36,271 bases of DNA, taken from Planoprotostelium fungivorum. Lineage: Eukaryota > Evosea > Variosea > Cavosteliida > Cavosteliaceae. The stretch is taken from NCBI GenBank assembly GCA_003024175.1, contig MDYQ01000259.1, positions 1-36,271 on the forward strand. The letters are read 5' to 3'. Under the pieces are notes generated by a model. The model ran no database searches and had not been told where the DNA came from. It saw only the letters and a list, made by a program, of their open reading frames with translations. The position numbers and the translations under genes are program-made. Position 1 is the first letter of the stretch, and each line of letters starts with the position of its first letter. Shown here in pieces: positions 1,768 through 33,197 of the stretch.

Positions 1768-1808
1768 TGCTGCCTTCTGATGGCCTCGTTGTCTCTTGCT
1801 GAAGGGGT
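1768..1808 (-). repeat. Inverted ankyrin-repeat fragment
   Basis: These 41 bases match, in minus-strand ankyrin orientation, the segment at 26919-26960 (core GATGGCCTCGTTGTCTCTTG). They directly abut the plus-strand ankyrin relic. This marks an inversion or fold-back rearrangement breakpoint inside an ankyrin array. Confidence 0.65.
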
Positions 1809-1953
1809 CTTGATGAACGTAAGTGTGGATCCATCAACAGATAATCAGTATGCCATCCGATTCGCAGAGGATCTCGATACAGTGCGAGTGCTGTTGGCCC
1901 ATCAACGAGCGGATCCAATCGCACAATACTACGAAGTCATCGAGAGAGCAGTA

Positions 1954-2043
1954 AAACGCCAACCTGATGGAGAGAGATCACCACCTCTCATTTGCAGAAT
2001 ATTTATTGAATTCCTCCGTTCTCTTTTTGGTCAGGTTGGCGTT
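1954..2043. mobile_element. 90-bp MITE-like element with terminal inverted repeats
   Basis: The ends are inverted repeats: left AAACGCCAACCTGATGG, right reading AACGCCAACCTGACC on the other strand. The flanks are CAGTA at 1949-1953 and CAGTA at 2044-2048, a 5-bp target-site duplication. Removing the element plus one CAGTA restores the ankyrin frame known from the paralogue at 26176-28223, so the insertion is directly demonstrated. It has no coding capacity and would need a transposase in trans. The superfamily is not assigned. Related ends lie at 2386, 6137-6245 and 19281. Confidence 0.8.
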
Positions 2044-2261
2044 CAGTAGAAGGAGGCCAGCGTCAGATCTTACAGCTTCTGCTGTCTCGTCATCTCGTGG
2101 GTCTGTTCCAATAGAACAGCTACATCATGCGAGTCTCGATTCGCTGGAGCAGCATCATGCGATTGGCTTTGCTGAGAGGACGCAAGAAGATAGTGCAGCT
2201 GCTGACAGATCATAATGAGCGCAAGTCAGCTGAAGAAAAGTGGATGACCAGAGGGATATAA

Positions 2262-2454
2262 ACTGATCTGTCGTACGTCTCTCTTCTCTCTTCGACTTTA
2301 ATTGTTCGAAAATCTTTTCGGTCACTAAGATGACAATATATCCAAGAGTTATACGTGCAGCTAATCATCCCTGATACGATCAATTAACGCCAACCTGACG
2401 AAAAAGAAAGACCACTGAGCTAAAAGAGAGATTAGGGATATTGTTAAGTACGAT
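2262..2454. other. Intergenic region after the ankyrin relic
   Basis: It begins with sequence shared with the 3' flank of the ankyrin gene at 26100-26175 (reverse orientation). It also holds a lone transposon end at 2386-2410. No gene is seen. Confidence 0.4.
2386..2410 (+). repeat. Solitary MITE terminal repeat
   Basis: AACGCCAACCTGACGAAAAA matches the terminal repeat of the elements at 1954-2043 and 6137-6245. No opposite end is found nearby, so it is a truncated or decayed copy. Confidence 0.55.
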
Positions 2455-2632: not shown

Positions 2633-2763
2633 CCGCTTCACAAATTGGGTGTGGACACGTGGTATCGAGAGAGTACGGCGAGAATTGTATCTTAAGAATT
2701 GCTGGCGTTCTTTTCTCTGCAATCGTGAGTACATGTTTCGGGATTTTTCGAGAGAATGATAAC

Positions 2764-3060
2764 GGATGGAAGAGCGGTTGAAACATGTTCTGTCACAATG
2801 GTACCTGATCAGACGGACTGGAAAGAACGAGCATAATCAGTCGACGTAGTATCCTGACTTGCTCAATTGGAGTGGAGGTGTGGACTGCACGCTCACCAAG
2901 GCAGGACAAAACAGAACTGTTGAATGAAAGGACTCCCTAATGGACTCTCAATGACCCCAACTGACGATGATGAGTCAAGAGCACATCATCGTCGTGTGAC
3001 TCACGTGTCTCTGCTGGTCTTTTCACGTCGTCTCTCGACGTTAATCTATTCTGATGAATA
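2764..3060. repeat. Duplicated non-coding block, copy A
   Basis: It matches 6246-6545 along most of its length. Both copies share GAAAGAGCGGTTGAAACAT-like starts, the CACCAAGGCAGGACAA stretch and the GGACTCTCAATGACCCCAA stretch, with small indels. In both copies it follows the 3' end of an ankyrin gene. It is part of a tandem duplication unit, and no coding function is evident. Confidence 0.7.
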
Positions 3061-3346: not shown

Positions 3347-4091
3347 TTATATTTTATGGAAGAGTTTATACACATCGGCTCCTCTAGGTGACGGTAGGCA
3401 GATCCATTCCCCCCATTGCTCCAGACCCCCGTAGCTCGACCATTTGATGATCACGGACCATATGACTCGTTTCTAAATGGAGAAGATATCGTGAGAAGAA
3501 AGGGAGTATGGATCGATGTGTGGACTTCACCTGCTCAAATGTACCGATGTACTGTACAAGTAACTATTTTCCTCCCCCAAATATGTTCTCACCAGGCCAG
3601 TGAACTAAGTGCAACGCTCACAGCGACCTTTCCCACGTACCTACCGTCCAGCGTGACGTTGACGTATAGATGCGTGGATGGAGACAACAGTGTTCGTCTT
3701 GCCCGGTGTCGACTGGGAGATGTCTACGCAGCCTGGGTAGCTGTTGGGGTGACTGATGGATATTTGGTTTGGTCTCACCGGACCTATTGAATCATACCTC
3801 TCTCCACCGCGGTCCACTATTCCTCTTCAAGCTGACGTCCACCAGTCCTGGATGAATAAACGAATAATACTTCACCTGACCATCGTCTAGCGTCTCTATC
3901 TTGGAATTGATCTTCTTCCATGCTCTGCTCTGAAACAATCGAAGAGAATTCGCCTTGTTCTCTTCACTCCATATCCAACTGCCATCGTCAGAGGTAACTT
4001 CGATGCTGAGACATTCACCGTCTCCCATCGGTAAACGTCCTCCATCTGTGAACTGTGTTCGAAATCTCTTGTCACTCTCTTCGTCCTTCAT
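3347..4091 (-). CDS. Orphan 178-aa protein, four exons
   Basis: Modelled exons are 3798-4091, 3645-3740, 3531-3551 and 3347-3472, all phase 0, giving 178 aa from ATG at 4089-4091. The first exon encodes a clean 98-residue segment with GGRLPMGDGECLSIEVTSDD and GSWIWSEENK. The last is Trp-rich (IWSVIIKWSSYGGLEQWGEW). I do not recognise the family; the Gly/Trp/beta-like composition suggests a small sandwich or lectin-like fold, which is inference. The 7-codon exon YIGTFEQ survives as CIGIFEQ in the relic at 6545-6655, which supports it. Exon 2 is the weakest: other frames across it are also open in part. It converges on the ankyrin gene at 1764-2261 and diverges from the one at 4703. Confidence 0.5.
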
Positions 4092-4570
4092 TGTGTCTGT
4101 CTCATCTTCACGATAGACATCGGCTGATCATCACACGCAGTCACTTGATGTTCATCAGACCCACCGGATGACTCTTCTCGTCATTCTGTCCAATTGATAT
4201 GCTTGATCTGTCATAGTCCTCTCCCTTTCTCTCGTCTTCTCTTCTTCTTGTCCCTCTTCTCTCATATATCAACGTTATATATTATCATATATCATTATCG
4301 TATTTCTTCTCCTTCCATTCCTTCTTCTTTCTCTTTGGAAGTTGTGACCGAAAGGAGTGTGATGCTGGATGTCTCGAATGTCTGTCTATCTTTGTTCAAC
4401 GTCATCACGATGTGTTACACCTTCTTTGTTGACAGCATGCTCGATGATGACGATGTTTCAAACTCGTATCCCAGCCGCAAATGATATGGACCTAAGAAAT
4501 GAGATGTTCAACTGAACCATCGCGCTGGGTGATCTGATGTTTTCACTGAGATTATGTCGCCATTGTAGAT
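4092..4570. repeat. Duplicated upstream segment, inverted relative to 25290-25845
   Basis: Its reverse complement matches 25290-25845 in blocks. Shared pieces include AAACATCAGATCACCCAGCG, ATCATTTGCGGC, GGGATACGAGTT, GAGAAAGGGAGAGGAC, and AGACAGACACAATGAAG at the start of the orphan gene. It lies between the divergent orphan and ankyrin genes and probably carries both 5' regions. No intact open frame is believed. A pyrimidine-rich tract lies at 4200-4345. Confidence 0.65.
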
Positions 4571-4702: not shown

Positions 4703-6132
4703 ATGAACGGGATGATCACCAGTCACGACATCACACGAGTCATCTTACACGCTGCGCTCAACAGAGACGTCGAACCGGAGGTCCTCCACCGGAAGAGGAA
4801 ACTTTCCTGCCCTGAGTCACACAACACAAGGAGGAAACAGTTTGCTCTCCTTCGCAGCACGTGCAAGTTGTGGAAAGACCTCGGTGAGAAGATGTCACAA
4901 ACTGTTCTCTCTTCTGACGACGTCAGTGGACGACTTCACTGACTGGCTGACCGACGATGATCTGCTTCTGGCTGTGAGAGGCTGCAAGGTAGACTCTGTT
5001 CGCTTCCTATTGTCTCGCGGAGGGCTGGATCCATCTGTACAAGACAATTGGCTAATTGGAGAGGCATCCGAGTATGATTCAACCGAGATCGTACGACTAC
5101 TCTTGAACGATCCTCGTGTGGATCCATCAGCACAAGATAACAAGGCCATCAGACAGGCAGCAAAGTGCCACAGAGGACACGAGGTGATCGAGTTACTTCT
5201 GAAAGATGCTCGTGTGGATCCATCAGCAAACCATCAGGAGGCCATCAAGCGTGCATCACATCAAGGACGTTTGGAGGTAGTGCGATTGCTCTTGAGCGAT
5301 CCGCGAGTGGATCCATCGGCAACTGACAATGATGCCATCATATATGCTGCATCTCGTGGTCACACTCAAGTTGTACAACTCCTGCTGTCTCATCCGCTGG
5401 TGGATCCTTTTGCACGGAATTATGCAGCCATCAGGAGAGCAGAGCAGGACGAATGCATAGAAGTCGTACAACTGCTCCATAATCACGAGATGAAAGTAGC
5501 ATGGGGGGACCTTCTTTACGCACAAGCACGTGAGAAGGTGGACACAAAGGACTACAAAGGTTTAGAGCGGCTCTTTCTGTCACATCCGCTTGCAGATTTA
5601 TCAGTCGTAGACAACACAACTTTCCGTTATGCTTCACGCATGGGCTTCATTGAATGGGTGAGGACACTGATGTCCGATGCACGTGTGGATCCGTCAGCGA
5701 GAGACAACGCGGCCGTCAGGTATGCAGCCTCAAACGGACATCATCACGTAGTACGGCTACTTTTGGCTGATCCTCGTGTGACATCATGAAGTGGTACGGC
5801 TACTTTTGGCCAATCCTCGTGTGGATCCATCAGTAGGAGATAACGAGGCCATCAGATATGCATCATACAGAGAATCTGCCATCACAGTGCAGCTGCTGTT
5901 GGCTGATCAACGAGTAGATCCAACGGCACGAGACAACGAGGCCATTGCGATAGCAGTAGCAAGAGACCATTTTGAGATCTTGCAGCTTCTGCTGTCTCAT
6001 CCTCTCATGGGCTCGTTCGAACAGAACAGCCACATCATGCAATTGGCTTTGCACAGAGGACACAAGGAGATAGTGCAGCTGCTGACAGAACATAATGAGC
6101 ACAAGTCAGCCCAAAGAGAAGTGGATGGATGA
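4703..6132 (+). pseudogene. Ankyrin-repeat protein gene, frame broken near 5784
   Basis: Exon 1 is 4703-4883, the intron 4884-4926 (43 nt, GTGAG...CAG) and exon 2 starts at 4927. The N-terminal module has ITSHDITRVILH and LRSTCKLWKDLG, an F-box-like pattern, then DDFTDWLTDDDLLLAVRG. About ten ankyrin-type units follow, with the signature DPRVDPSAxDNxAIRxA and H-x-E-V-V-R-L-L-L. At 5784-5790 a repeat unit has lost an internal segment: CGTGTG joins ACATCATGAAG, shifting frame to TGA at 5787-5789. The remaining repeats and family C-terminus continue in another frame to 6132. Splicing GTGTGA...CATCAG would restore frame but would use a poor donor, so a deletion is likelier. The truncated product would be 346 aa. 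The function of such proteins (binding partners, perhaps SCF adaptors) is inferred. Confidence 0.75.
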
Positions 6133-6136
6133 CAAG

Positions 6137-6245
6137 AACCGCCAACCTGACAAAAAAGAGATCACCGTCTCTATTTTGTTTGGCGTAGTCGGGAAATAAA
6201 GTCTCTCATTTGCTCCGTGATCTCTCTTTTTTGTCAGGTTGCGTT
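6137..6245. mobile_element. 109-bp MITE-like element, second copy
   Basis: The terminal repeats pair over ~27 bases: left AACCGCCAACCTGACAAAAA then AGAGATCAC, and right, read backwards, AACGCAACCTGACAAAAAAG then AGAGATCAC. The ends match the 1954-2043 element, but the interior differs, as expected of non-autonomous copies. It sits immediately after the ankyrin stop at 6132, where the paralogue continues with GATATAAA, so it inserted in the 3' flank. No clear target duplication is seen. Confidence 0.75.
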
Positions 6246-6655
6246 AATGAAAGAGCGGTTGAAACATCTTATGTTACAATAGTACCTGATCTTATCCGGA
6301 CTTGCTCCTCGTACTCAATCCAAAGCCTTGTTTAACATCCATCAGTTGTCCACGTTCGACTTGGCTGTAGTAGAGGTGAGTACTGCACGTTCACCAAGGC
6401 AGGACAAGACAGAACAGTTGAATGAAAGGACCCTGTAATGGACTCTCAATGACCCCAACTGACGTTGATGAGTCAAGAGCACATCATCGTCGTGTGACTC
6501 ACGTTGTTTCCTGGTCTTCTCTTGGCGTTATTCTATCCCAATGAAGAAACATATGACCCATTACTAAATGGAGAAGATATCGTGAGAAAAAAGGGAATGG
6601 ATCGATGTGTAGACTTCACCTGCTCGAATATACCGATGCAGTAGGAATAAAGAGC
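6246..6655. repeat. Duplicated block copy B with relic of the orphan gene
   Basis: 6246-6545 copies 2764-3060. The match then jumps straight to sequence equivalent to 3455-3555 (ATGGAGAAGATATCGTGAGA and a 7-codon exon reading CIGIFEQ on the minus strand), omitting the ~400 bases between. This is a truncated copy of the [block + orphan gene] unit and is not coding. Confidence 0.7.
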
Positions 6656-7454: not shown

Positions 7455-7615
7455 CCGATGGTGTGTCGATCTGGGAGCCGTCTGTTATAACAACGCATCG
7501 GAATATCGGAATGTCGCTCGTAATATATTCCGAAGTTCTGCGGAATCCCGACCATCTACAACGGACATCTTTTCGTTCGATCTCTTCATCTCGTATAACG
7601 AGATCTTCTTCCTCT

Positions 7616-10600
7616 TTATGTCTCTTCCAGTGCCTCTAAGAAGACTTCCTCCAGCGACGTCTGTGATATCGACCACTCTGTGATGCCGTTCTCCTTCTTT
7701 TCTCTCTTCATGTCGCCAAATATCGTGCCCATGTCCACCTCTTCCTTCTGCACATAGTAGTTGACCACTCCTCCTGCCACTACATCTGCTCTTGCTGACG
7801 GATACTTGTTCCGTATGTACGTGTCTGCTTCGATCAGACGTGAAGGCAAGGCTGATATAGACAGTTTGTAGCCTCTGCCGTACTTTCTCTTCAGCTCTAG
7901 CTGTGTTCCTTCGCACACTAGCTTGCCTGCTCTCATCTCAGTTTCTGTGTGATGGAGATTTATGATGATGTGATGTGTTATTGAGAGATGTGTCCGACCT
8001 TGTGAGATGATCGCAATCTTTGTGCACAGTGTGTCCGCTTCTTCCATGTTGTGTGTTGTGATGATCACAGCCTTGTCTGGCTTCTGACTCTGTATCAGCT
8101 CCCAGATCGCTCTGCGTGTCTCAGGGTCCAGTCCGTTCGTTGGCTCGTCTCTGTCATCTGTCAGCCAGAACTGCATCACAATTCATCACGATCACGATCG
8201 TGATCATGATCGCGATCTCATCATGTGAATGACTCACAAGATGAGACACTTTGGGTTGCCGATGATCGATATGCCTATCGACAGCCTCTTCTTCATTCCC
8301 GTCGACATGTTTATAGCAAGTTTGTCTTTCTCATCCAGCAAACCCACGCAGCTCAAAACTCTGTCCTAAACCACCATCACTCGTCATCATCGTCATCATC
8401 ATCACTTACTGTTTCTTCGTCTTCGTACAAGTGTGACACACCCTTGATCCTCATGTAAAACAGAACGTGCTGTCTCGCCGTCAGATCGTCCCACACGATC
8501 TCGTGCTGTGGACAGAATCTGTTCTGAACGTCAATATTTCACATCAAACTGCGATCGATATCACCCCAATGCTTTTCTGACAGAGAACATCTCGTGCATG
8601 ATGTTCTTGCCTGCGATGTATGCATCGCCTCCTGACGGTGGTATGATGCCGCACAAGATGTGAGCCAGTGTACTCTTGCCCGCTCCGTTAGGACCCAGCA
8701 GTCCCACACATTCTCCGTCACGGATCTGTAGAGACAGACTATTCAGTGCCTCCTTCCCCTTGTACTTTTTCTGTGATACGGTCAATCTACAACGTCAGAT
8801 GCAGAGGTACACCTGTATTCCTCGAATATCGATCAAATCTCGAAAGTTTTGCGAGTTGATGAGTAAGCTGGACCTCTCGTTGAGTTCTTTTCCATCTCTC
8901 TTCCTCAGCATATCGCGAAAGTGCAGATATGGAAAGTACAGAGGCTCTCTCACTCCGTACTCTTTCGGCAGTACGTTGTCCAGATAGATAGTACACAGAA
9001 ACAGAAACACTGCACTCGCCACGAGGCAGCCGTAGATCTGCAGTCTGTCATTCTCTTGACATCACACGATAAGAATGACTCACTCGTATGAGTTCACCGT
9101 GAAAGATGTCCGAGAAGGAGATCGGCTGAGCAGACTGAAAGAGAGATGCACCGATGACCCATACGCCACGATTGAGAGCGAAAGGAGGAAACAGATTCAG
9201 ATACCAAGGTGGGACATCATCGTACCAAACTGAGGCTGTTCAGTTGAGATGATCAGGTGATGAACAGGACGCTGATGAAGGATGATGATGTTCATGTGAT
9301 GGTTGATGAGCGTCACATATGATCAGCAATCACCGATTAGATTTGATGATTGTATCGGTAGGTAAAAGATGGGTGTCAACACGTGCATGACAACTATGGC
9401 CACCATAGGTCGACTGAAGAAAGTAGACATCAACATGCTCAGCATTGGCTGACTGAAAGAGTGCAGCATGAACAGAACACTCCACGACGTGATGTTCACT
9501 TGGATGAAGAAGCTCAGCTGCAGGGACAGACCGATGATGCACATCAGCAGGGCGAAGAGAAAGTTGAGCAGACCGAAGAAGATCCACATGGAAAGCCAGT
9601 AGGCTGTCATACTCATTCCCGTCTGTGTAGATGAGATGATGATCACGATGATCATGATGTGTGATGGAGCTGACGATGTGAAGAGATATGATATAGAGCA
9701 TGATGATAAACCGTCCAAGACAATCGAGTGACATTGTCATGATGTTTGTGTCGCCAGATGACTCACGATCTTCATCATCTCTATAGATTTTGTCTTCTTC
9801 TCCGTTACGACAAAGTAGGTCAACAAGGGAAGGTTCCAACCCAGAGCGATGGGGATCATCCAGACCAACTGAAGAGCTGTCTGGTCTAGTTGTCCTGGAA
9901 AAATCATCCGCAGCCGATCAGATGACATGTTGCGATGATCTCACCTCCAATTGTCGTCTCCATTTGCCAACTTCCGTACATTCCATAGACGTAGAATGGA
10001 GGTTGTGTGTTGTTGTACTGTCTCAGTATGTCTTCCGTTCCTTCTCCACTCTTGCAGCTCGCCTTCATCTTTCTGGCCGATCCTTCCTTGTCTTCAGTCG
10101 TGTCTATGCGATGAGCATGTCTCAGCACTCACCCATAGAGCTGAAGAGTATGCCATACAACTCCCCCATGTTATCACTTTCCATGAATTCGTAATATCGA
10201 TATTGTTCTGTCATCTCTCAACATCGCTCGCATCTTGTCATGACGTCAAAGCTGATGAGTGGATCACTTCACCTCGTTGGATGACTTGCAAAGTGACGTT
10301 GAGTCGAGACCGCATCACATCCACATCGTGATACACGAACGCGAAATCTGCAGAAATTTGTTCACTTGTGTTCTGGTCCCCCTCATTCCAATAACGGATG
10401 GCTTCCTCGTGCAGCTCCTCATCCAGTTGATCGGTGGAGCCGTTGTAGGAGCTGATCTGTGGACGTGACAGATCTCTATAAGAGCCAGTGAAACCCAACA
10501 GCCCCTTTCTGTACTGTGATCTTCTTCAGCCGGATAGTTTGTGGGTGATGCTTCACCGTTTGGTTGACTGTCGAAGAGATGGAACCCAGAATGACATCAT

Positions 10601-10964
10601 CTGAGAGATTCGGTCCACGCAGGTGACAACCATTGGGATAGTATCTCTGCGTAGATAATTGTTGATTCATATTAGGTGTGACTGACTGCCTTTCTTCTCC
10701 GTCGAACCAATGAATCAATGCGAAACCGATCAATATTGCAACTGGAACGAAAAGTTGAACAGACACGAGAACACTTTGACGTCTCTTCTCGATGGTCAGT
10801 AGTTTTGAGAGGAAAAGACACACCATCACGCTCAGATTCTTCAATGTTGTCGCTCGCACGTGACTGAGGAAAGACGTCTTATCCTCTAATGGCACGGGAG
10901 AGGAAGCCACTTGCGATCCTGAATCGGCATCCATCAGGTCGTGAATGATTGCATGATCGATCAT
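7616..10964 (-). CDS. ABC transporter, subfamily A, half-size (copy 1)
   Basis: Fourteen exons on the minus strand: 10830-10964, 10557-10784, 10273-10513, 10129-10207, 9945-10072, 9767-9894, 9334-9622, 9084-9235, 8813-9037, 8565-8770, 8410-8518, 8238-8365, 7999-8150 and 7616-7926. Phases agree, giving 836 aa. Order: a cytosolic N-terminus, TM1 near [16 protein letters not shown], a large non-cytosolic loop, then a TM bundle (exons 6-9). One nucleotide-binding domain follows, with Walker [11 protein letters not shown]-loop [12 protein letters not shown], Walker [12 protein letters not shown] and H-loop [12 protein letters not shown]. The architecture is ABCA (lipid-type exporter) but with one half, so it would need to dimerise. 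The signature motif is MSTGM rather than LSGGM. Homology is firm; the substrate is unknown. It is a tandem duplicate of 12831-16177. Confidence 0.9.
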
Positions 10965-11069
10965 GTTCAACTACAACGATAGATCAATCGCCCAAATCAG
11001 AAGTTTTCTTCGTTCGCACATTCTGGATCGCTGGAACAGGACATCATCTCGGGTCAGCAGAGACAAGTG
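10965..11069. promoter_or_regulatory. Short divergent intergenic region
   Basis: About 105 bp separate the start of the ABCA copy 1 gene from that of the plus-strand ankyrin gene, so both promoters must lie here or overlap the genes. The ankyrin side ends with CAGCAGAGACAAGTGATGAAG, similar to the 5' flanks of the other ankyrin genes. The rest of that shared flank is poorly conserved. Confidence 0.45.
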
Positions 11070-12779
11070 ATGAAGATGAACGGGATACTGTCCAGTCACG
11101 ATGTTACAAAAATCATCCTAAACTTCGTCCTGAACGAAGGTGTTGAACCACTACCACAAGTCCACCAACACCATCTTCTTGATAGAGATGGTGCTTGCCC
11201 TGAGTCTCACAGCACAAGAAGGGAACAGTTTGCCACGCTTCGCAGCACGTGCAAGTTGTGGAAAGACATCGGTGAGAAGATGTCACGAAAAGATGCTCCT
11301 CTGAACATGTCAGTGGACGGCTTCACTGGCTGGCTGACCGATTGTGATCTATTTCTGGCTGTCAGAGGGTGCAAGATCGATTCTCTTCGCTTCCTGATGG
11401 CACACACTGAACTAGATCCATCTAAGGGAAACAATAATTATATCATAACGGCATCTCGTGATGGTTCGACGCAAGTTGTACGGCTGCTGTTGAGCGATTC
11501 TCGTGTGAATCCATCGGCAAGGTACAATTTGGCCATACAAGAGGCAGGCAGAGGTGGTCATATGGAGATCGTGCGGCTTCTCTCGTCCGATCCTCGTGTG
11601 GATCCATCGACAGGGTACAACAGAGTCATCACAGAAGCAGCCTCAGCAGGACATACCGAGATCGTTCAGCTGCTGCTGTCCGATCCTCGTGTGGATCCAT
11701 CAGCATGGAACAACGAGGCCATCAAGATAGCAGTCAGAGAACATCGCACGGACATAGTAAGGCTACTCTTGTCCGATCCTCGTGTCGATCCATCGGTAGA
11801 CAACAACCAGGCCGTACGGATCGTATCTGAGCGAGGGACGGCTGAGATGATCAGTCTGCTCTTGTCTCATCCAAAGGTCGATCCATCCGTAGAGGACAAC
11901 AAGGTCATCAGAAAGTACGCCTTGAATGACGATAGTGAACCACAAGTGATGCAGCTTCTCTTGACCGATCCTCGTGTGGATCCATCTGCAGGGAACAACG
12001 AGACGATCAGGAATGCTTGCCTGCGTGGTAACGTCGAGATCTGCCGCTCTCTCTTGGCCGATTCTCGTGTGAATCCGTCATCACTTGACAACCAGGCCAT
12101 CAGAAATGCAGCTTCACGTGGTCATACTCAGATCGTGAAGCTTCTTCTATCTCAACCCGTGGATCCATCAGCACAAGACAACGAAGCCATCCGAACTGCA
12201 TCACGCAACGGACACCATCAAGTGGTAGAGCTTCTCTTGGCTGACGCTCGTGTGGATCCATCGGCACAAGACAACAAGGCCATCAGAGAGGCAGCATCCA
12301 ACGGGCATGATCAAGTGGTCCGTCTTCTTCTGTCCCACTCTGCAGTGAATCCGGCCGTGCAAGACAATCTGCCCCTGAGGAATGCAGCGGAGAACTTTTG
12401 CATCGAGACCGTACGATTGCTGCTGGCCGACGATCGTGTGGATCCATCAGTACAAGACAATTATCTCATCGCGAGCTTGACGGGTGGACACAAGATAGTG
12501 GAGCTTCTCTTAACTCATCCTCGCGTGGATCCATCTGCACGAGATCAGTCGGCCATCAAGCTGGCATCAGCCAACGGCCATACCAAGATAGTGCAATTAC
12601 TCTTGGCTGATCCTCGAGTCGACCCATCGATAGACGACAACTACCCTGTCCGAGCGGCAGCAGAGAGGGGTCATACTGAGGTGCTTCAGCTTCTGTTGTC
12701 TCACCCTCTCGTCGATGCATCTGCACGAAGTAATGTAGCCACGAGAGATTCATTGAAAAGAGGATATTCAGCAACATAA
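11070..12779 (+). CDS. Ankyrin-repeat protein with F-box-like N-terminus (intact, longest copy)
   Basis: Exon 1 is 11070-11271 and exon 2 is 11314-12779, giving 555 aa. ATG at 11076 is the alternative start matching the paralogues. The 42-nt intron 11272-11313 is a multiple of three and stop-free, so it can be read through; its position (after the G of WKDIG) is the same as in the other copies. Residues ~1-70 carry SSHDVTKIILNFVLN and ATLRSTCKLWKDIG, which resemble a degenerate F-box (inference). GFTGWLTDCDLFLAVRGCK follows, then about 15 ankyrin-type units of ~33 residues with D-P-R-V-D-P-S and R-L-L-L cores. One unit (LLLSQPVDPSA) lacks a residue. It lies on the opposite strand between two duplicate ABCA genes. 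It is the only full-length uninterrupted copy here. Protein-protein binding is expected; targets are unknown. Confidence 0.85.
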   Translation: MKMNGILSSHDVTKIILNFVLNEGVEPLPQVHQHHLLDRDGACPESHSTRREQFATLRSTCKLWKDIGEKMSRKDAPLNMSVDGFTGWLTDCDLFLAVRGCKIDSLRFLMAHTELDPSKGNNNYIITASRDGSTQVVRLLLSDSRVNPSARYNLAIQEAGRGGHMEIVRLLSSDPRVDPSTGYNRVITEAASAGHTEIVQLLLSDPRVDPSAWNNEAIKIAVREHRTDIVRLLLSDPRVDPSVDNNQAVRIVSERGTAEMISLLLSHPKVDPSVEDNKVIRKYALNDDSEPQVMQLLLTDPRVDPSAGNNETIRNACLRGNVEICRSLLADSRVNPSSLDNQAIRNAASRGHTQIVKLLLSQPVDPSAQDNEAIRTASRNGHHQVVELLLADARVDPSAQDNKAIREAASNGHDQVVRLLLSHSAVNPAVQDNLPLRNAAENFCIETVRLLLADDRVDPSVQDNYLIASLTGGHKIVELLLTHPRVDPSARDQSAIKLASANGHTKIVQLLLADPRVDPSIDDNYPVRAAAERGHTEVLQLLLSHPLVDASARSNVATRDSLKRGYSAT

Positions 12780-12830: not shown

Positions 12831-15800
12831 TCATGATGTCTCTTCCAGTGCCTCTAAGAAGACTTCCTCTAGCGACGTCTGTGATATCGACCACTCTGTG
12901 ATGCCGTTCTCCTTCTTTTCTCTCTTCATGTCGCCAAATATCGTGCCCATGTCCACCTCTTCCTTCTGCACATAGTAGTTGACCACTCCTCCTGCCACTA
13001 CATCTGCTCTTGCTGACGGATACTTGTTCCGTATGTACGTGTCTGCTTCGATCAGACGTGAAGGCAAGGCTGATATAGACAGTTTGTAGCCTCTGCCGTA
13101 CTTTCTCTTCAGCTCTAGCTGTGTTCCTTCGCACACTAGCTTGCCTGCTCTCATCTCAGTTTCTGTGTGATGGAGATTTATGATGATGTGATGTGTTATT
13201 GAGAGATGTGTCTGACCTTGTGAGATGATTGCGATCTTTGTGCACAGTGTGTCCGCTTCTTCCATGTTGTGTGTTGTGATGATCACAGCCTTGTCTGGCT
13301 TCTGACTCTGTATCAGCTCCCAGATCGCTCTGCGTGTCTCAGGGTCTAGTCCGTTCGTCGGCTCGTCTCTGTCATCTGTCATCATCATGATGACCTCGAT
13401 AACGATTATGTGGTGGTGATGGCTCACAAGATGAGACACTTTGGGTTGCCAATGATCGATATGCCTATCGACAGCCTCTTCTTCATTCCCATCGACATGC
13501 TTATGGCAAGTTTGTCTTTCTCGTTCAGTAGACCCACGCAGCTCAATATTCTGTCCTGCACATCATCATCATTCATCTTGAGACGCCTTCCAGCCGTGTG
13601 CCTATCGATCGTATCTTCATCATCACTTACCGTCTCTTCGTCTTCGTACAAGTGGGACACACCCTTGATCCTCATGTAGAACAGAACGTGTTCTCTCGCC
13701 GTCAGATCGTCCCACACGATCTCGTGCTGTGGACAGAATCTGATCAACACGTCAGTCAGCTGTACGATTGCGGCGATCGATATCACCCCAATGCTTTTCT
13801 GACAGAGAACATCTCGTGCATGATGTTCTTGCCCGCGATGTATGCATCGCCTCCTGACGGTGGTATGATGCCGCACAAGATGTGAGCCAGTGTGCTCTTG
13901 CCCGCTCCGTTAGGACCCAACAGTCCCACACATTCTCCATCACGGATCTGCAGAGACAGACCGCTGAGTGCCTTTTTCCCCGGATACTCCTTCTATCACA
14001 AGACGTTCAGGTCTACGGGCTTGCGATGAGCAATGGAAACTCACCTGTATTCCTCGGATGTCGATCAGTTCCTGGCAATTGGGCGTGTTGAATAGTAAGC
14101 TCGTCCTATCATTCAGTTCTTTTCCTCTTCTCTTCCTCAGCATGTCGCGAAAGTGCAGATATGGAAAGTACAGAGGCTCTCTCACTCCGTACTCTTTCGG
14201 CAGTACGTTGTCCAGATAGATAGTACACAGAAACAGAAACACTGCACTCGCCACGAGGCAGCCGTAGATCTGCAGTCTGTCATTCTCTTGACATCACACG
14301 ATAAGAATGACTCACTCGTATGAGTTCACCGTGAAAGATGTCTGAGAAGGAGATCGGCTGAGCAGACTGAAAGAGAGATGCACCGATGACCCATACGCCA
14401 CGATTGAGAGCGTAAGGAGGAAATAGCATCAGGTACCACGGTGGTGGGTCATTCACCCAAACTTGAAGATAATCAGTCATAAGGTGATGATCGTGTGGCA
14501 CATGATGATGATCATCGGGTATCATCTATGAATGATCTCACCTATCAAATTCAACACCTGACTCGCCACGTAAAATATGGGTGTCAATATGTGCATGACA
14601 ACTGTGGCCACGATAGGTCGGCTGAAGAAAGTAGACATCAACATGCTCAGCATTGGCTGACTGAAAGAGTGCAGCATGAACAGAACACTCCACGACGTGA
14701 TGTTCACTTGGATGAAGAAGTTCATCTTCAGCGATAGACCGATGATGCACATCAGCAAGGCAATGAGAAAGTTGAGCAGACCGAAGAAGACCCACATGGA
14801 AAGCCAGTAGGCTGTCATACTCATTCCCGTCTGTATAGATGAGATGATGATCACCATGGTAACCATGTGGTATGATATGTAATTCAAGATGTTATAGTCT
14901 GATCATATGACATCATCGTGATACAATGTTTGATGAGCGATCGACGACCATCATGAAGCGATGTCGAGATGATGGTGACGATACAGTACGACTCACGATT
15001 TTCATCATTTCCACCGATTTAGATTTCTTCTCCGTTACAATAAAATAGGTCAACACGGGAAGATTCCAACCCAGAGCAACGGGTATCAGCCAAGTCAGAA
15101 CAAAAGTGTTAAAGTCTTTGTTTCCTGCAAAGAATCACGGAACAGGTAACGAGATGACATGATGTGCATCATCGATCATGATCTCACCTGTGTTTGCAAT
15201 GTGAAGGGACCAACCTCTGGACGTCCCATGGACATAGAACGGAGGTTGTGTGTTGTTGTACTGTCTCAGTATGTCTTCCGTTCCTTCTCCACTCTTGCAG
15301 CTCGCCTTCATCTTTCTGGCCGATCCTTCCTTGTCTTCAGTCGTGTCTATGCGATGAGCATGTCTCAGCACTCACCCATAGAGCTGAAGAGTATGCCATA
15401 CAACTCCCCCATGATATCACTTTCAAAGATTTCGTAATATCGATATTGTTCTGTCATCTCTCAACATCGCTCACATTACGGCGCCTAAGCTGATGAGTGA
15501 GTCTTCTCACCTGGATCGATGACTTGCAAAGTGACATTGAGTCGAGATCGCTCGACGTCCACATCGTGGTACACGAACGCAAATCTTTCAGTAATATGGA
15601 CACTCGAATTCCAGTGACCACGGTTCCAATAGCCCGTAATTCTTCTATACATCTCATCATCGTATTGATCGGTGGAGCCGTTGTAGGAGCTGATCTGTGG
15701 ACGTGACAGATCTCTATAAGAGCCAGTGAAACCCAACAGCCCCTTTCTGTACTGTGATCTTCTTCAGCCAGATAGTTTGTGGGTGATGCTTCACCGTTTG

Positions 15801-16177
15801 GTTGACTGTCGAAGAGATGGAACCCAGAATGACATCATCTGAGAGATTCGGTCCACGCAGATGATTACCTTCAAGATCGATGGGCCCATAGTGATTCAAC
15901 CCATTACTTTGACTTGGAGAAGAGAACGGTGGATCGCCTCTGCTGAACCAATGAACCATAGCGATGCCAATGAGAACTCCAAGAGGAACGATGATCTGAA
16001 CGAACAAGAGTATATATTGACGCCCCTTTTCTCGATCGTCAGCGGGTTTGAGAGATGAAGACACACCATCACACTAAGATTCTTCCACGTTGTCGCTCGC
16101 ACGTGACTGACGAAAGATGTCTTGTCCTCCAACGGTACAGAAGACTGAGTCTCTGGTGGCCTCAGATCGAGCTCCAT
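12831..16177 (-). CDS. ABC transporter, subfamily A, half-size (copy 2)
   Basis: Fourteen exons mirror copy 1: 16073-16177, 15795-16025, 15511-15751, 15372-15450, 15188-15315, 14997-15124, 14542-14830, 14316-14461, 14045-14269, 13787-13992, 13631-13739, 13428-13555, 13217-13368 and 12831-13144. They give 826 aa from the ATG at 16175-16177. Walker [32 protein letters not shown] and TTHNMEEAD are present, and the signature is MSMGM. The last two exons and several transmembrane exons are nearly identical to copy 1. Exons 1-2 and 6 and many introns differ, a mosaic that suggests recent duplication or gene conversion. The likely role is membrane lipid or amphipath transport as a homo- or heterodimer, perhaps with copy 1. 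Its start is divergent from UROD, 336 bp apart. Confidence 0.9.
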
Positions 16178-18560: not shown

Positions 18561-19279
18561 ATGATCGGGATAATCACCAGTCAAGACATCACTCGAGTCA
18601 TCTTACATTCTGTGCTCAACAGAGACCTCGAATCGGAGGTTTATCTACACTCGGCGAGGAAACTCTCCTACCCTGAGTCACAAAACACAAGGAAACAGTT
18701 TGCCCTCCTTCGCAGCACGTGCAAGTTGTGGAAGGACATCGGTGAGAAGATGTTCCAAACTGTTCTCTTCTGACGACGTCAGTGGACGGCTTCACTGACT
18801 GGCTGACCGAAGATGATCTGCTTCTGGCTGTGAGAGGCTGCAAGGTAGACTCTGTTCGCTTCCTCTTGACTCGCAGAGGACTGGATCCATCTGTACGAGA
18901 CAATAAGCCAATTCGAACGGCTCTTCGAGATAGTACAATGGAGACTGTACGGCTGCTCTTGAGCGATCCTCGTGTGGATCCATCAGCAAGAAACAATGAG
19001 GCCTTCAGAGAGGCAGCATCAGAGGGATATCATGAAGTGATACAGCTGCTTTTAGCTGATTCTCGTGTGGATCCATCAACAGAAGACAACGAGGCCTTCA
19101 GAGAGGCAGCTGCAAAGGGACATCATGAAGTGGTACAGCTGCTTTTGGCTGATCCTCGTGTGGATCCATCTGTATGCAACCAGGATCCTATCAAGAGGGC
19201 ATCATCTGACGGACATGCCATGACAGTGCAGCTGCTGTTGACAAATCCTTGTGTGGATCCATCAATAGACGACCAGTAA
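18561..19279 (+). CDS. Ankyrin-repeat protein, short copy
   Basis: Exon 1 is 18561-18741, the intron 18742-18782 (41 nt) and exon 2 18783-19279, giving 225 aa. The N-terminal module is that of the family (GIITSQDITRVILHSVLN, then ALLRSTCKLWKDI). Next come DGFTDWLTEDDLLLAVRG and about five ankyrin units ending VDPSIDDQ. The stop TAA at 19277-19279 directly precedes a transposon terminal repeat at 19281. The C-terminus normal for the family (LLTEHNEHKSA) is absent, so the gene was probably truncated when the element inserted or rearranged. The reading frame itself is intact. Whether the short product is functional cannot be told. Confidence 0.75.
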
Positions 19280-19280
19280 A

Positions 19281-19306
19281 ACGCCAACCTGACAAAAAAG
19301 AGAGAG
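19281..19306 (+). repeat. Solitary MITE terminal repeat at the ankyrin stop codon
   Basis: ACGCCAACCTGACAAAAAAG is the same end sequence as the elements at 1954-2043 and 6137-6245, and is preceded by CAGTAA just like the 1954 insertion. No matching opposite end is found downstream, so the other half is lost. Confidence 0.6.
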
Positions 19307-19544
19307 TCTGACCAAGACAAAGTAAGCCAATAGGAGTCAATTGCAGACAAGAGAGATCACGAGCAGAACCAGTCGGCCAAACAGGACACAGTCAGATGAG
19401 AAGAGAGATATAAATGATGTGACGCCTATTCATCAGCTGATTGATGAACGTCGTTATGTAAGACTCACGCGTGATGATTATTTGTTGCAACACAGAATAT
19501 TCCCCAAATCAAGAAGTGCAGTCTGTGTCCCAGATTGGCCATGT

Positions 19545-19720: not shown

Positions 19721-19852
19721 CAATCCTACCACCCGTACAGTTCATCCACTCGTGCAGTTGATCCACTAAGTGGAGACTCCATAAAAAATACCGATTATAC
19801 GTTGGCTTGTTGGCAATCAAAAGATAAAGAGAGGACAGAATTGTACAACAGA

Positions 19853-20578
19853 TCAGTATATGTCTGATAGCAGCTGTACCACCCTGGTATGTCCTTTCTC
19901 TACTGCAGATCTCTTGGCCTCGTTGTCTCGTGCGGATGCATCGACGAGAGGATGGGACAACAGAAGCTCAACGACTTCAATACGACCCCTTGCTGCTGCC
20001 TTTCTGATGGCTTCGTTGTCCCGGGCTGATGGGTCCACTTGGTCGTCAGCTAACAAGACGGATGGATCCACTCGTTGATCAGCCAGCAAGAGTTGTACTG
20101 CTCCATCTTCTCCTCGATGTGCTGTCAGTCTGATGGCCTCGTTGTTTTTGGCAGATGGATCCACTCTTTCATCAGCCAACAAGAGCTCCACTGTGCGTTC
20201 GTGTCCCGCAGATGTTGCTTGTCTGATGGCTTCGTTGTCACATGCTGATGGATCCACTCGTGGATCAGCCAACAGCAGTTCTACTGTGATGAAATGTCCG
20301 AAAGCCTTTTGCTTCCTCTTCGCTCGTTCAGAGCCAGTGACAGATCGTCGTTTGTCAAACAGTGAGTGAAGCTGTCCACTGAAGAGGTCAGGGAAAGTAT
20401 GATGCTGCGTCTCACCGATGTCTTTCCATAGCTTGCAGGTGAGGCGAAGGATGGCAAAATGTTTCCTCCTTGTGTTATGAGATGCAGGACTCTCGTCCAC
20501 ATCGATCCGCTTCCAGGTCCAGTGTTCGACACCTTGGTTCATCACCGCGTCTAAGATGGATGATCTTCGTGACATCAT
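19853..20578 (-). pseudogene. Ankyrin-repeat gene with disrupted frame
   Basis: The ATG lies at 20576-20578. The N-terminal module (HNTRRKHFAILRLTCKLWKD) is present, followed by the family intron (20379-20415, 37 nt, GTGAG...CAG). Splicing gives DSFTHCLTNDDLSLAL as expected, but that frame stops at 20281. The ankyrin units beyond (ELLLADPRVDPSACDNEAI onward) are in the frame reached only if the intron is kept. An internal deletion that removed the RGCKVDSVRF region therefore probably shifted the frame. A second deletion has fused two repeats (VDPSVLLADDQVDPSA). If the 37-nt intron is retained, a 241-aa protein is possible. About five repeats remain, ending LLSDIY. Confidence 0.65.
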
Positions 20579-25289: not shown

Positions 25290-25845
25290 TTCTATCTACA
25301 ACGGCCACATCATCTCCAGAGAAAACATCAGATCACCCAGCGCAATGGTTCTATCGAACGTCTCACCTTTCTTAGGTGGTCCGTATCATTTGCGGCAGGG
25401 ATACGAGTTCAGTGGAGTAACTGAGAGAACAGCTGAAGAAAACCAGTGGATCAGTTCCGAAGATCTGAGGGAGTCGCATTACGGTACAAAAACCTTGAAA
25501 GTCTAAATGCTTCACTCTCTTCACTCACTCTGTAGCTTAGAGTTTGCATCATCTGCACATTTCGTGATGACGAAGAACAAGATAAACAGCTGAGACATAC
25601 AGCATCACGTCTTCCTTTCGATCACAACTTGCAAAGAGATAGAAGAGAGAGGAAGGACAAGAAGAAGAGAAGATGAGACGGAGAAAGGGAGAGGACGGTG
25701 ACAGATGCGGCACATCAGTAGGACGTGATGATGAGAAGAGTCAGCACAAGTGAGTCTGATGGCATCGAATGACTGCATGATAAAGATGAAGAAGAGGTGT
25801 CGCTCGATGTCGCTCGTAGACAGACACAATGAAGAATGAGGAGAG
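25290..25845. repeat. Inverted copy of the 4092-4570 segment
   Basis: Block-wise match to the reverse complement of 4092-4570, up to ACAGACACAATGAAG at ~25817-25831, where the orphan gene starts in the other copy. Here the sequence after ATG diverges and soon stops, so the orphan gene itself is missing. A ~70-codon open stretch at 25296-25506 (HIISRENIRSPSAMVLSNVS) is broken in the other copy, so coding is doubtful. Confidence 0.6.
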
Positions 25846-26175
25846 ATGAGAGACAGCTGACACGCTGAGAAGGTAGAAGAAGAGTATATAAGAGAAAAGA
25901 AGGATAAAATAGAGATGATGATCGGTCACGGAGAAATAAAACAATCAACAAATTCTGCACCCTTACGTATCCATCAAGAGCCACATCGATGAACAATATC
26001 GCGTATCATCAGCGCACAAATTCAAACAACACGGTCAATGAAGAAGACGGTCTGCCCTTCTGATGTAAACAGCTCAAACGACACGAGCGACATCTTTCAT
26101 CGAGATCAGATTTTCTTGCGTCGGGCATGTGAGTGACTGAGAAATAACGAAGAAAGACGAGAAATGTACGACAGA
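25846..26175. other. Intergenic region, no gene seen
   Basis: Purine-rich plus strand (25850-25935), then the 3' flank of the ankyrin gene. The part next to 26175 is shared with the flank of the relic at 2262-2320. Confidence 0.35.
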
Positions 26176-28223
26176 TCAATTTATATCTCTCTTGTCATCC
26201 AGCCACTTCTCTTCAGCTGACTTGTGCTCATTATGTTCTGTCAGCAGCTGCAATATCTCCGTGTGTCCTCTGTGCAAAGCCAATCGCATGATGTTGCTGT
26301 TCTGTTTGAACGGACCCACGAGAGGATGAGACAGCAGAAGCTGCAAGACCTCAACATGGTCTCTTTGTATTGCTCTCTCAATGGCCTTGTTGTCTTGTGC
26401 CGTTGGATCCACTCGATGATCAGCCAACAGCACTCGCACTGCGTCGAGATCTTCTGCACATCGGATGGCATACTGGTTGTATGCTGATGGATCTACACGA
26501 GGATCGGCCAAGAGCAGCCGCACTGTCATGGTATGACCCTTAGATGATGCCCCAATGATGGCATCATTCTTCCCTGCTGATGGATTCACACGAGGATCAG
26601 CCAAAAGCAGCCGTACCACTTCAAGATGTCCCTTTGAGGCTGCCTTCCTGAAGGCCTCGTTGTCTTTTGCTGATGGATCCACACGAGGATCAGCCAATAG
26701 TAGCCGGTCTACTTCATGATGTCCGTTTGCGGCTGCCTTCCTGAAGGCCTCGTTGTCTCCTGTTGATGGATCCACACGGAGATCAACCAAAAGTAGCCGG
26801 ACTACTTCATGTTGTCCGTTTGCGGCTGCCTTCCTGAAGGCCTCGTTGTCTTTTGCTGATGGATCCACACGAAGATCAGCCAATAGTAACCGTACCACTT
26901 CATGATGTCCGTTTGCGGCTGCCTCTCTGATGGCCTCGTTGTCTCTTGCTGACGGGTCCACACATGGATTGGACATCAGTATCCTCACTCATTCGACCAA
27001 GCCCACGCGCGAAGCATATCGAATAATGGTGTTGTCCACGACTGATGCATCTGCAAGCGGATGTGACAGAAATAACCGCTCAAGATCTTCGTTGTCCTTT
27101 GTGTCCGCCTTCTCACGTGCTTGTGCGTCAAGAAGGTCTCCCCATGCTACTTTCATCTCGTGATACTGGAGCAATCGCATGATTTCTATGTGTCCGACAT
27201 CCGCTGCTGCTCTGATGGCTTCGTGATTCTGTGCAAAAGGATCCACCAGCGGATGAGACAGCAGGAGTTGTACAACTTCAGTGTAGCCATTTGATGCAGC
27301 CTCTATGATGGCTTCGTTGTCGTCTGCCGAGGGATCCACTCGCGGATCGCTCAAGAGCAATCGCACAACCTCCGTCCTTCCTCTCCGTGATGCACTCTTG
27401 ATGGCGTCCTGATGATTTGCTGATGGATCCACACGAGCATCTTTCAGAAGTAGCTCGACCATTCCACTTGCTCCATGGTATGACGCCTCTCGTACGGCCT
27501 CGTTATCTTGTGCTGATGGATCCACACGAGGATCGGATAAGAGAAGCTCCACCATCTCAGGTGATCTGACAGCAACTGCCGCTCGTATGGGCTCATTGTT
27601 GCCATCTGATGGATCCAAAAGAGGATGTGCCATGAGAAACTTGACCAGCTCACATCTACCTATCCGGACAGCTTGAGACAGGAGAAAGCCTTGGATGTTT
27701 GATGGATCCATACGGTCATCGGACAAGAGTTGCCGCACTACGTCGTCGTGACCTCCTGTAACTGCCGCTGAGATGGCCTCGTTGTCTTGTGCTGATGGAT
27801 CCACTCGAGGATCGCTCAAGAGTAGTTGTACGATCTCGGTTGAACCATGAAAAGATGCCACTATGATTGGCTCATTGTCTTGTAAAGATGGATCTAGCCC
27901 TCCGCAAGTCAAGAGGAAGCGAACAGAGTCTACCTTGCAGCCTCTCACAGCCAGAAGCAGATCATCTTCGGTCAGCCAGTCAGTGAAGCCGTCCACTGAC
28001 GTTGTCAGAAGAGAGAACAGTTTGTGACATCTTCTTCACCGATGTCCTTCCACAGCTTGCACGTGCTGCGAAGGAGGGCAAACTGTTTCCTCCTTGTGTT
28101 GTGTGACTCAGGGCAGAAGGAATTCTTCTTCCGGTGGATGACCTCCGGTTCGACGTCTCTGTTGAGCACAGTGTGTAAGATGACTCGTGTTACATCGTGA
28201 CTGGTGATTGTTCCGTTCTTCAT
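26176..28223 (-). pseudogene. Ankyrin-repeat gene with a single in-frame nonsense codon
   Basis: Exon 1 is 28040-28223, the intron 27996-28039 (44 nt) and exon 2 27995 down to 26176. The full family layout is present: TITSHDVTRVILHTVLN and LLRSTCKLWKDIG, DGFTDWLTEDDLLLAVRG, then ~17 ankyrin units and the C-terminus LLTEHNEHKSAEEKWLDDKR. At 26989-26991 a TGA stands where the paralogue at 4703 has TGG (its IEWVRTLMSDA is here VE-stop-VRILMSNP). The frame is otherwise open on both sides for 270 codons or more. The gene either makes a shortened ~397-aa protein, is a very young pseudogene, or reflects a base-calling error. Five consecutive units at 26580-26950 are nearly identical, showing recent repeat expansion. 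Confidence 0.8.
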
Positions 28224-31344: not shown

Positions 31345-33197
31345 ATGTCCCTCAACTCGAGCAAGGCAGTGGTGAAAGCCTTCGATGATTATCAGAAGGC
31401 TAGAACGGCGTTCGTTCAGAGCGTCGTGGAGTTAGCTCAGAATCCAAAAAACATCCCCAGCCTGCAAGAGCAAGGGGTGATGGCTCAGCTGCGTCCTCTG
31501 CTGTTGGACTCCGTCCCATCGATTCAACACAATGCAGCACAAGCTCTGTCCAAATTGGCCAGTCACAGCGCGGAGCTCGCATCGGCTGTCGTTCAAGGAG
31601 ACATCTTGCCTCAACTTGTATATTCTCTCGCCGAGCAAAATGTGAGCGTGGATGATTGCGATTGTTGGGATCGATGGCTGACACATCTCGATAGAAATTC
31701 TATAAGAAGGCAGCAGCCGGAATCCTCAGAGCTGTTTCGAAACATTCTCCTCCTCTGGCTCAATCGGTCGTCGATTGTGGCGCCATCGATGCGTTGGCCA
31801 CCTGTTTGGAGGAATTCGACCCTGGAGTCAAAGAACAGGCCGCTTGGGCTCTCGGTTACATCGCCAGACATAATGCAGGTGAGATCGTCTGATTTGTCCA
31901 TCGGATCCACCTGATCTCATCCAGAATTGTCTCAGGCGGTTGTAGACACAGGTGCCGTACCTCTATTGGTGTTGTGCGTGCAGGAGCCAGAATTGGCCGT
32001 CAAGCGCATCGCCGCCTCAGCTCTCAGTGACATCAGCAAGCACACTCCAGAGGTGAGAACTCCGCACGGATCAACATCTGAAGACCTCAGTTGGCACAAT
32101 CTGTCGTAGACGCTGGATCCATCACTTACCTCGCTCCCCTCATAAAGAGCAACGACGCCGCGCTCAAGAGACAAGTCTGCTCTTGTCTGGGTCAGATCGC
32201 GAAGCACAGCGTCGAGCTGGCCGAGCTCGTTGTAGAGGGAGGTATCTTCCCCACCATTCTGGACCGCCTGAGAGATCCAGATCAACTCGTGAGAAAGAAC
32301 GCGGTGAGAGATCACGAACTTCATGTGTCACATCGTCTGACGGATGATGATCCAGGCCATTCTCATACGCGAGATCTCAAAGCACACGCCTGAACTCGCT
32401 TCTCTCGTGGTCAACTCGGGAGGCATCGCCGCTGTAGTCGACTACATCCACGAGAACCGAGGAGCGAACGCGTTAGCCAGCATCATGACCATCGGCTACG
32501 TCTCTGCTTTCTCTGAGACGATGGCGAAGGCAGTCATCGATGCCAAAGGAATCACTCCCTTATTGGACTCTCTCAAGCCTGACCAAGAGGATCACATCAG
32601 GGTGAGTCGAACACAGAGATGTAGAGTGTCGGCTCATGCGATGTCAGTCTGCCAGCGCGTGGGCCTTGGGACAAGTGGGAAGACATTCATCGGAGCACGC
32701 CGAAGCCGTAGCTAACGGGAACGCGCTGTTGAGACTCGTCGAATGTTTCTCCGCAGACAGCTCGGTGAGATTTACCATCCATGTTCGTTAACGTCATCCT
32801 GATCCGTGCGACGATGATGACGATCGCATAGACTGACGTCATTCAGGAGGACCTTCGAACGAAATCAAAGAGAGCTCTCAAATCCATCATCGAAAAGTGT
32901 ACAAATTTAGCCGCCTTGGAGCCCCTGATCGACTCCCCCGGCGGAGTCCAAGAGTACGTCATCTACCAGTTTGCCAAGATCCTACCCAACGATACGAAAG
33001 CCAGGAGAGATTTCGCCACGAACGGTTCTCTGCAGAAGCTGCAAGTCATCTCGACGGAGCCGGGATCGAAGTTGAAGGATTACATCCAGACGATCAACAA
33101 CGTTTACCCCGAGGAGATCGTACAGTACTACTCTCCGGGCTATTCCAAGACGCTGTTGGCGAAGATCGAAGACTATCCGAATGGTAACGAAGGATAA
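31345..33197 (+). CDS. SPAG6: SPAG6/PF16, axonemal central-pair armadillo protein
   Basis: Seven exons: 31345-31641, 31695-31878, 31925-32052, 32091-32303, 32356-32601, 32648-32764 and 32847-33197. They give 511 aa, matching the ~509 of the family. It encodes tandem armadillo repeats, e.g. SIQHNAAQALSKLASHSAEL, KEQAAWALGYIARHNAEL and KRQVCSCLGQIAKHSVELAE. The conserved C-terminal region has FAKILPNDTKARRDFATNGS and NVYPEEIVQYYSPGYSKTLL, diagnostic of SPAG6/PF16. The protein stabilises the C1 microtubule of the 9+2 axoneme central pair and is needed for flagellar beating. Its presence implies that the organism makes motile flagella. All splice phases are consistent, and no damage is seen. Confidence 0.96.

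Follow-up and report, generated by a model that had tools for sequence, protein, structure and literature searches.

What is the 90-bp sequence that separates two copies of CAGTA inside a broken ankyrin gene of Planoprotostelium fungivorum, and does it belong to a family of mobile elements? The window, i.e., the whole stretch of DNA that was analysed (36,271 nucleotides, contig MDYQ01000259.1), is eukaryotic, judging from its sequence. In the 29 ORFs which were scanned against Pfam, out of 94 of at least 80 amino acids, the domains found are ankyrin repeats, F-box, GST, an ABCA-like fragment, URO-D, RhoGEF, PH, an XPG-type nuclease, armadillo repeats and a G-alpha subunit. The ORFs of the window look like pieces of interrupted genes. 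A comparison of the G-alpha sequence with solved structures yields alpha subunits of G proteins, going by the molecule names of the best 60 of 353 matches, and the armadillo protein at 31345 presumably resembles the flagellar protein SPAG6/PF16.

Ankyrin sequences occur at several places of the window:

4842-6132, 11067-12779, 18782-19424, 19853-20578 and 26176-28220, in both orientations: ankyrin genes or pieces of them, some truncated or rearranged, whose repeat unit is mostly 93 bp

The window also contains a duplicated block (7613-10934 and 12831-16177, about 5.2 kb apart), the first part of which codes an ABCA-like domain, with an ankyrin gene between the two copies. The identity between these copies is 76-99% in at least nine repeat pairs. 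Another segment is duplicated in inverse orientation (4075-4570 and 25294-25845, 74-85% identical).

The insertion in the ankyrin relic

The features of the locus, where the element is referred to as copy A, are the following:

1780-2260, forward strand: ankyrin relic hosting copy A (ORF 1780-2049 and paralog alignment)
1949-1953, forward strand: left target-site duplication CAGTA of copy A (from the sequence; the paralogous empty sites read CAATA and CAGTA)
1954-2043, forward strand: copy A, a complete 90-bp element (sequence, terminal-repeat match and end alignment)
2044-2048, forward strand: right target-site duplication CAGTA of copy A (from the sequence)

An earlier note on this DNA described a 90-bp element with CAGTA on either side, and the two pentamers are indeed present at 1949-1953 and 2044-2048. 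The relic has relatives in the window which lack the element: its segment 1823-1969 is 80% complementary to 26352-26498, and in a global alignment with the paralog 26061-26500 (reverse strand), most of a long scattered gap falls at copy A. When 95 bp are omitted (1954-2048, the element and one CAGTA), the flanks align without a gap at the site to 26301-26410 (reverse strand). The same omission makes the site gap-free against 5901-6000 (forward strand), with one 3-base gap close to the far end of that alignment. The empty paralogous sites read GCAATACAAAGAG and GCAGTAGCAAGAG, compared to GCAGTA-element-CAGTAGAAGGAG at copy A. Thus, the event that produced copy A consists of a 90-bp insertion and a 5-bp duplication.

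The note also stated that removing the element restores the paralogous ankyrin frame. This holds locally, according to the codons as read by eye, but compared with the paralog, the relic still carries a 30-bp insertion and a 4-base gap, and an in-frame stop (by eye) interrupts it. The ORF 1780-2049 is the ankyrin frame which enters copy A, and its stop (2047-2049) is made of the end of the right CAGTA and the following G.

Copy A has a GC content of 43%. Its inverted ends, AACGCCAACCTGA, are perfectly identical over 13 bp (1955-1967 and 2031-2043), and folded as single-stranded DNA it is more stable than all of 200 shuffled sequences (z -3.94). The outermost bases are not inverted, the left end being AAACGCC and the right end GGCGTT followed by C, which counts against its being a MITE.

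The inverted ends and the empty paralogous site nevertheless support the MITE-like insertion with a 5-bp duplication that was first proposed. The feature is very probably a MITE, that is, a non-autonomous cut-and-paste DNA transposon which is short, nearly palindromic and without a gene of its own. A DDE-type transposase, encoded elsewhere in the genome, would act in trans and bind the inverted ends. It would join these ends to CAGTA, at positions 5 bases apart on the two strands, and repair of the gaps would then double the target.

Ends shared by four loci

Three other loci of the window have related ends:

6137-6245, forward strand: copy B, a complete 109-bp element (end alignment)
2386-2434, reverse strand: copy C, a single end (end alignment and BLAST to copy B)
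19279-19312, no strand assigned: copy D, a single end (end alignment and ORF 18782-19279)
19274-19278, forward strand: CAGTA adjoining copy D (from the sequence; the opposite-strand paralog reads CAGTATGCC)

The family therefore comprises six ends at four loci in this 36-kb window, of which A and B are complete. The further ends listed earlier (2386, 6137-6245 and 19281) are real, D starting at 19279 or 19280, but C and D stand alone: no partner end for either is found in the window by a search for AACGCCAACCTGA with up to two mismatches, by alignment to the consensus or with a profile of the six ends.

With up to two mismatches, AACGCCAACCTGA has six matches in the window, compared to 0.67 expected, and none of 100 shuffles reaches six. 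Five of these matches belong to the family, and the sixth, at 32790 (two mismatches), does not. The right end of B (6217-6245) contains an indel and is recovered by local alignment. Against a 30-base terminal consensus, which was built from the six ends and hence inflates their scores, the ends score 36 (A left), 44 (A right), 48 (C), 47 (B left), 54 (B right) and 52 (D). The top score in 100 dinucleotide shuffles of the window is 34, reached once. These values support the idea of a family with shared ends, although the weakest one, the left end of A, is barely above the top shuffle, which is a point against the MITE assignment. The profile recovers the six ends from which it was made (E 2.2e-7 to 1.8e-5) and its next match in the window has an E value of 2.1. 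No Rfam family matches at gathering scores.

Copies A and B can be aligned over their whole length, with gaps in the central part (local score of 70, compared to 30 for the best of 300 shuffles). Both are short, with terminal inverted repeats, which in B are imperfect and extend over about 29 bp (6140-6165 and 6217-6245), and neither has coding capacity in its 90 or 109 bp, the ORF through copy A being the ankyrin frame that runs in. The single-strand fold of B has a z of -5.94, with 0 of 200 shuffles as stable. The difference in length between the two complete copies (90 vs 109 bp) also weighs against a MITE. Copy C (2386-2431) corresponds to the right half of B in reverse (6245-6202; 84.8%, E 1.3e-7). 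Copy D scores above shuffles against A and B in both orientations, higher in reverse, and it too, less clearly, appears to match the right half of the element in reverse. Since each of the four copies has its own position relative to the ankyrin loci, gene duplications did not simply carry them along. That the known copies amount to four loci, all in one window, is a further argument against the MITE assignment.

The position of copy A within a gene raises the question of whether it could be an introner, a transposon-like sequence which inserts in genes and leaves the transcript as an intron, the duplicated target (GTA of the left CAGTA and CAG of the right one) providing the splice sites. The available parts of PMC9860276 describe introners with terminal inverted repeats, target-site duplications and splice sites recruited from these duplications, some of which alter the transcript by whole codons. 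Copy A resembles some of these families in its repeats, its duplication, its location within a gene and the availability of GT and AG in the duplicated target: it reads CA-GTAAAACG...CGTTCAG-TAG, with a GT...AG span of 96 nt, and D likewise begins with GTAAAACG. However, in contrast to the introners of that excerpt, splicing would remove one nucleotide more than was inserted (96 vs 95 nt), with a frame shift in A and a TAG at the junction (by eye), and a GT is absent from the left boundary of both B and C. Moreover, the host gene of copy A is already broken, and outside the four loci nothing in the window matches the elements with an E value below 0.1, a search made with the window as a whole rather than intron by intron. 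An introner is therefore a very improbable explanation, and on present evidence the family of copy A is an ordinary MITE.

Junctions, targets and ankyrin 3' ends

A target-site duplication is seen in one of the four copies only, A, which again counts against a MITE; C and D are single-ended, and B occupies a junction whose surroundings are the following:

6246-6291, forward strand: right flank of copy B (homologous to 2766-2810, unlike the sequence after other ankyrin 3' ends)
2755-2769, forward strand: AATGA-TAACG-GATGG, possibly an excision footprint, at the sister locus of the right flank of B (BLAST and sequence; suggestive only)

Copy B starts 4 bp past an ORF stop and is preceded by an ankyrin 3' end (GGATGACAAG). 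On the right side, 6247-6291 matches 2766-2810 by BLAST (88.9%, E 2.6e-11), a segment which in the sister locus lies about 0.5 kb farther along. Compared with three ankyrin 3' flanks, the right flank of B does not rise above shuffles (113, 457 and 126 of 500 reached the score). The two flanks are thus mismatched: B occupies a deletion junction, which explains the absence of a target-site duplication. An 8-9-bp duplication (ATGACAAGA vs ATGAAAGAG) was considered for B and dropped, since its right flank is unlike ankyrin 3' flanks and matches 2766-2810. We infer that the junction was most simply left by recombination between two elements: such recombination (or a deletion) in a duplicated ankyrin locus would have removed about 0.5 kb and left B.

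The sister locus reads AATGA-TAACG-GATGG-AAGAGCGG, compared to AATGA-AAGAGCGG at B (AATGA being at 6246-6250). The additional letters possibly represent the footprint of an excision, including a second 5-bp duplication. This is only a hint, because 12.9% of the window positions have at least three of five matches at the same spacing and the AACG letters are short.

The surroundings of D are also rearranged. The TAA stop of the ORF 18782-19279 is formed by the TA of CAGTA and the first A of copy D; the insertions of A and D both cut ankyrin reading frames. The ankyrin homology ends at CAGTA, and BLAST picks it up again from 19395; between these two points, 116 bp stand in place of about 270 bp of the paralog (26470 to 26200). 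In a looser alignment, the homology perhaps resumes from about 19342 (score of 55, without a shuffle control), in which case the replaced stretch is shorter. Two of the four loci, B and D, therefore stand on deletion or replacement junctions.

A degenerate minisatellite of 17-21 bp, CTGTACGGGTGG, occurs near C (2462-2584) and D (19729-19767, reverse), on opposite strands. With up to two mismatches, its motif is found 10 times in the window, compared to 1.0 expected. Near C there are four of these matches (2462-2584), and near D two, on the opposite strand (19729-19757).

The presence of this related repeat near both C and D, neither of which has a partner end, would be accounted for if the two were the termini of a longer, possibly autonomous transposon. 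At D, however, the ankyrin sequence is back by 19395, ahead of the minisatellite, and, relative to the end, the repeat is on one strand at C and on the other at D. In addition, no transposase domain is found in the 29 of 94 ORFs scanned against Pfam, with thresholds of 0.001 and 0.01. A longer transposon is thus very improbable.

The junctions also bear on an explanation which dispenses with transposition, according to which a hairpin-forming spacer was spread to several places by ectopic recombination or template switching between ankyrin paralogs, CAGTA being a microhomology. Indeed, B and D are situated at rearrangement junctions, duplicated ankyrin and ABC-transporter genes abound in the window, and the left end of A and D have 19 identical bases in common, CAGTA included. 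On the other hand, A is a clean insertion with a doubled target and both ends present, and the inverted ends recur at four non-equivalent positions. Recombination or template switching as the origin of the elements is hence very improbable.

The observation that CAGTA also precedes the end of D is correct (19274-19278). In five ankyrin ORF stretches, CAGTA and its complement together have a frequency of 0.0021 per base, which makes a second CAGTA improbable as a chance event at one given site. This does not establish the target preference at which the note saw a hint: the pentamer is found at two of the four loci, A and D, and D is single-ended and was possibly made by recombination at the microhomology. 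The statement that the ends are always next to ankyrin 3' ends is loose. Copy A is inside the relic, C about 130 bp beyond the relic end, B 4 bp after an ORF stop and D at a truncation point. None of the four loci is more than 200 bp away from an ankyrin gene or relic, a zone which covers 25.6% of the window (P of 0.004 if the loci are independent, with ankyrin intervals drawn after the sites had been seen). Three of the six grouped ankyrin loci (ends 12779, 19853 and 26176) have no element.

Known transposons and database searches

Several known groups were considered as relatives. Transib elements make 5-bp duplications and have CACWRTG ends; the duplication has the same length here, but the termini (AAACGCC and GGCGTT) are unlike CACWRTG. 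TTAA is the target of piggyBac, and such a target was suggested by C and by the right end of B; it was dropped, as A and the left end of B do not fit. The available parts of PMC10045372 mention TA duplications for Tc1/mariner, and 4-bp duplications with CC..GG ends for piggyBac. Neither group suits the present family: A duplicates five bases, and TA is not found at the end of the left flank of either B (ACAAG) or C (CAATT). Copy A can be read as having a TA duplication only if it is given unequal ends.

Ginger2/TDD, in the accessible sections of PMC2836005, is similar in having a 5-bp target duplication in a protist, but its termini are TGTNR. The Submariner MITE of Pandoravirus salinus, as described in the excerpt of PMC4495683, is likewise short, nearly palindromic and non-coding, with inverted ends, a target duplication and a paralogous empty site. 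It differs by its 243-bp consensus, TA duplications, inverted repeats of about 100 bp and 30 copies, compared to 90-109 bp, a CAGTA duplication and four loci in one window for the family described here.

The available parts of PMC9860276, PMC10045372, PMC2836005, PMC4495683 and PMC8232201 contain no description of these ends. Similarly, none of the literature found on protostelid genomes, amoebal MITEs, introners and 5-bp-duplication superfamilies names them in the portions at hand, which is not proof of their absence from it. The match of AACGCCAACCTG in the full-text literature is, in the extract concerned, a paper on a directed-evolution method.

The end pattern matches seven contigs of IMG/VR (L001-L007; GC 58-60%), which are all identical in the region of the match (about 145 bases compared by eye). 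In the two for which ORFs are listed, L003 and L004, the match is inside a small phage gene coding NGNANLTKKN. This gene is HNH/AP2-like, as judged by eye. In three contigs (L004-L006), an 11-base core is also found on the other strand, about 5 kb off, in a different sequence. These phage matches, which involve a single stretch shared by all seven contigs, were taken as a coincidence. An inward-shifted version of the pattern, with the outer three bases dropped and two inner ones added (20 letters instead of 22, reaching at most two bases deeper into the element), has no match in IMG/VR, and the end pattern has none in prokaryote genomes. A search with an ankyrin protein pattern matched 20 stretches in genome_contigs, none of which was confirmed, and none in viral_contigs.

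A broader proposal is that a MITE family of an unassigned transposase superfamily, with 5-bp duplications and AAACGCCAACCTGA ends, prefers sites in ankyrin codons and reshapes ankyrin 3' ends by recombination-driven deletion, AATGA-TAACG-GATGG being a possible excision footprint. Taken as a whole, this proposal is rather unlikely. The link between the elements and deletions in duplicated ankyrin loci nevertheless deserves a second look. If the observations extended to the whole genome, they would provide insertions with empty paralogous sites and a transposase that could be found through the shared ends, and the elements would be a possible cause of the turnover of 3' ends in a multigene ankyrin family.
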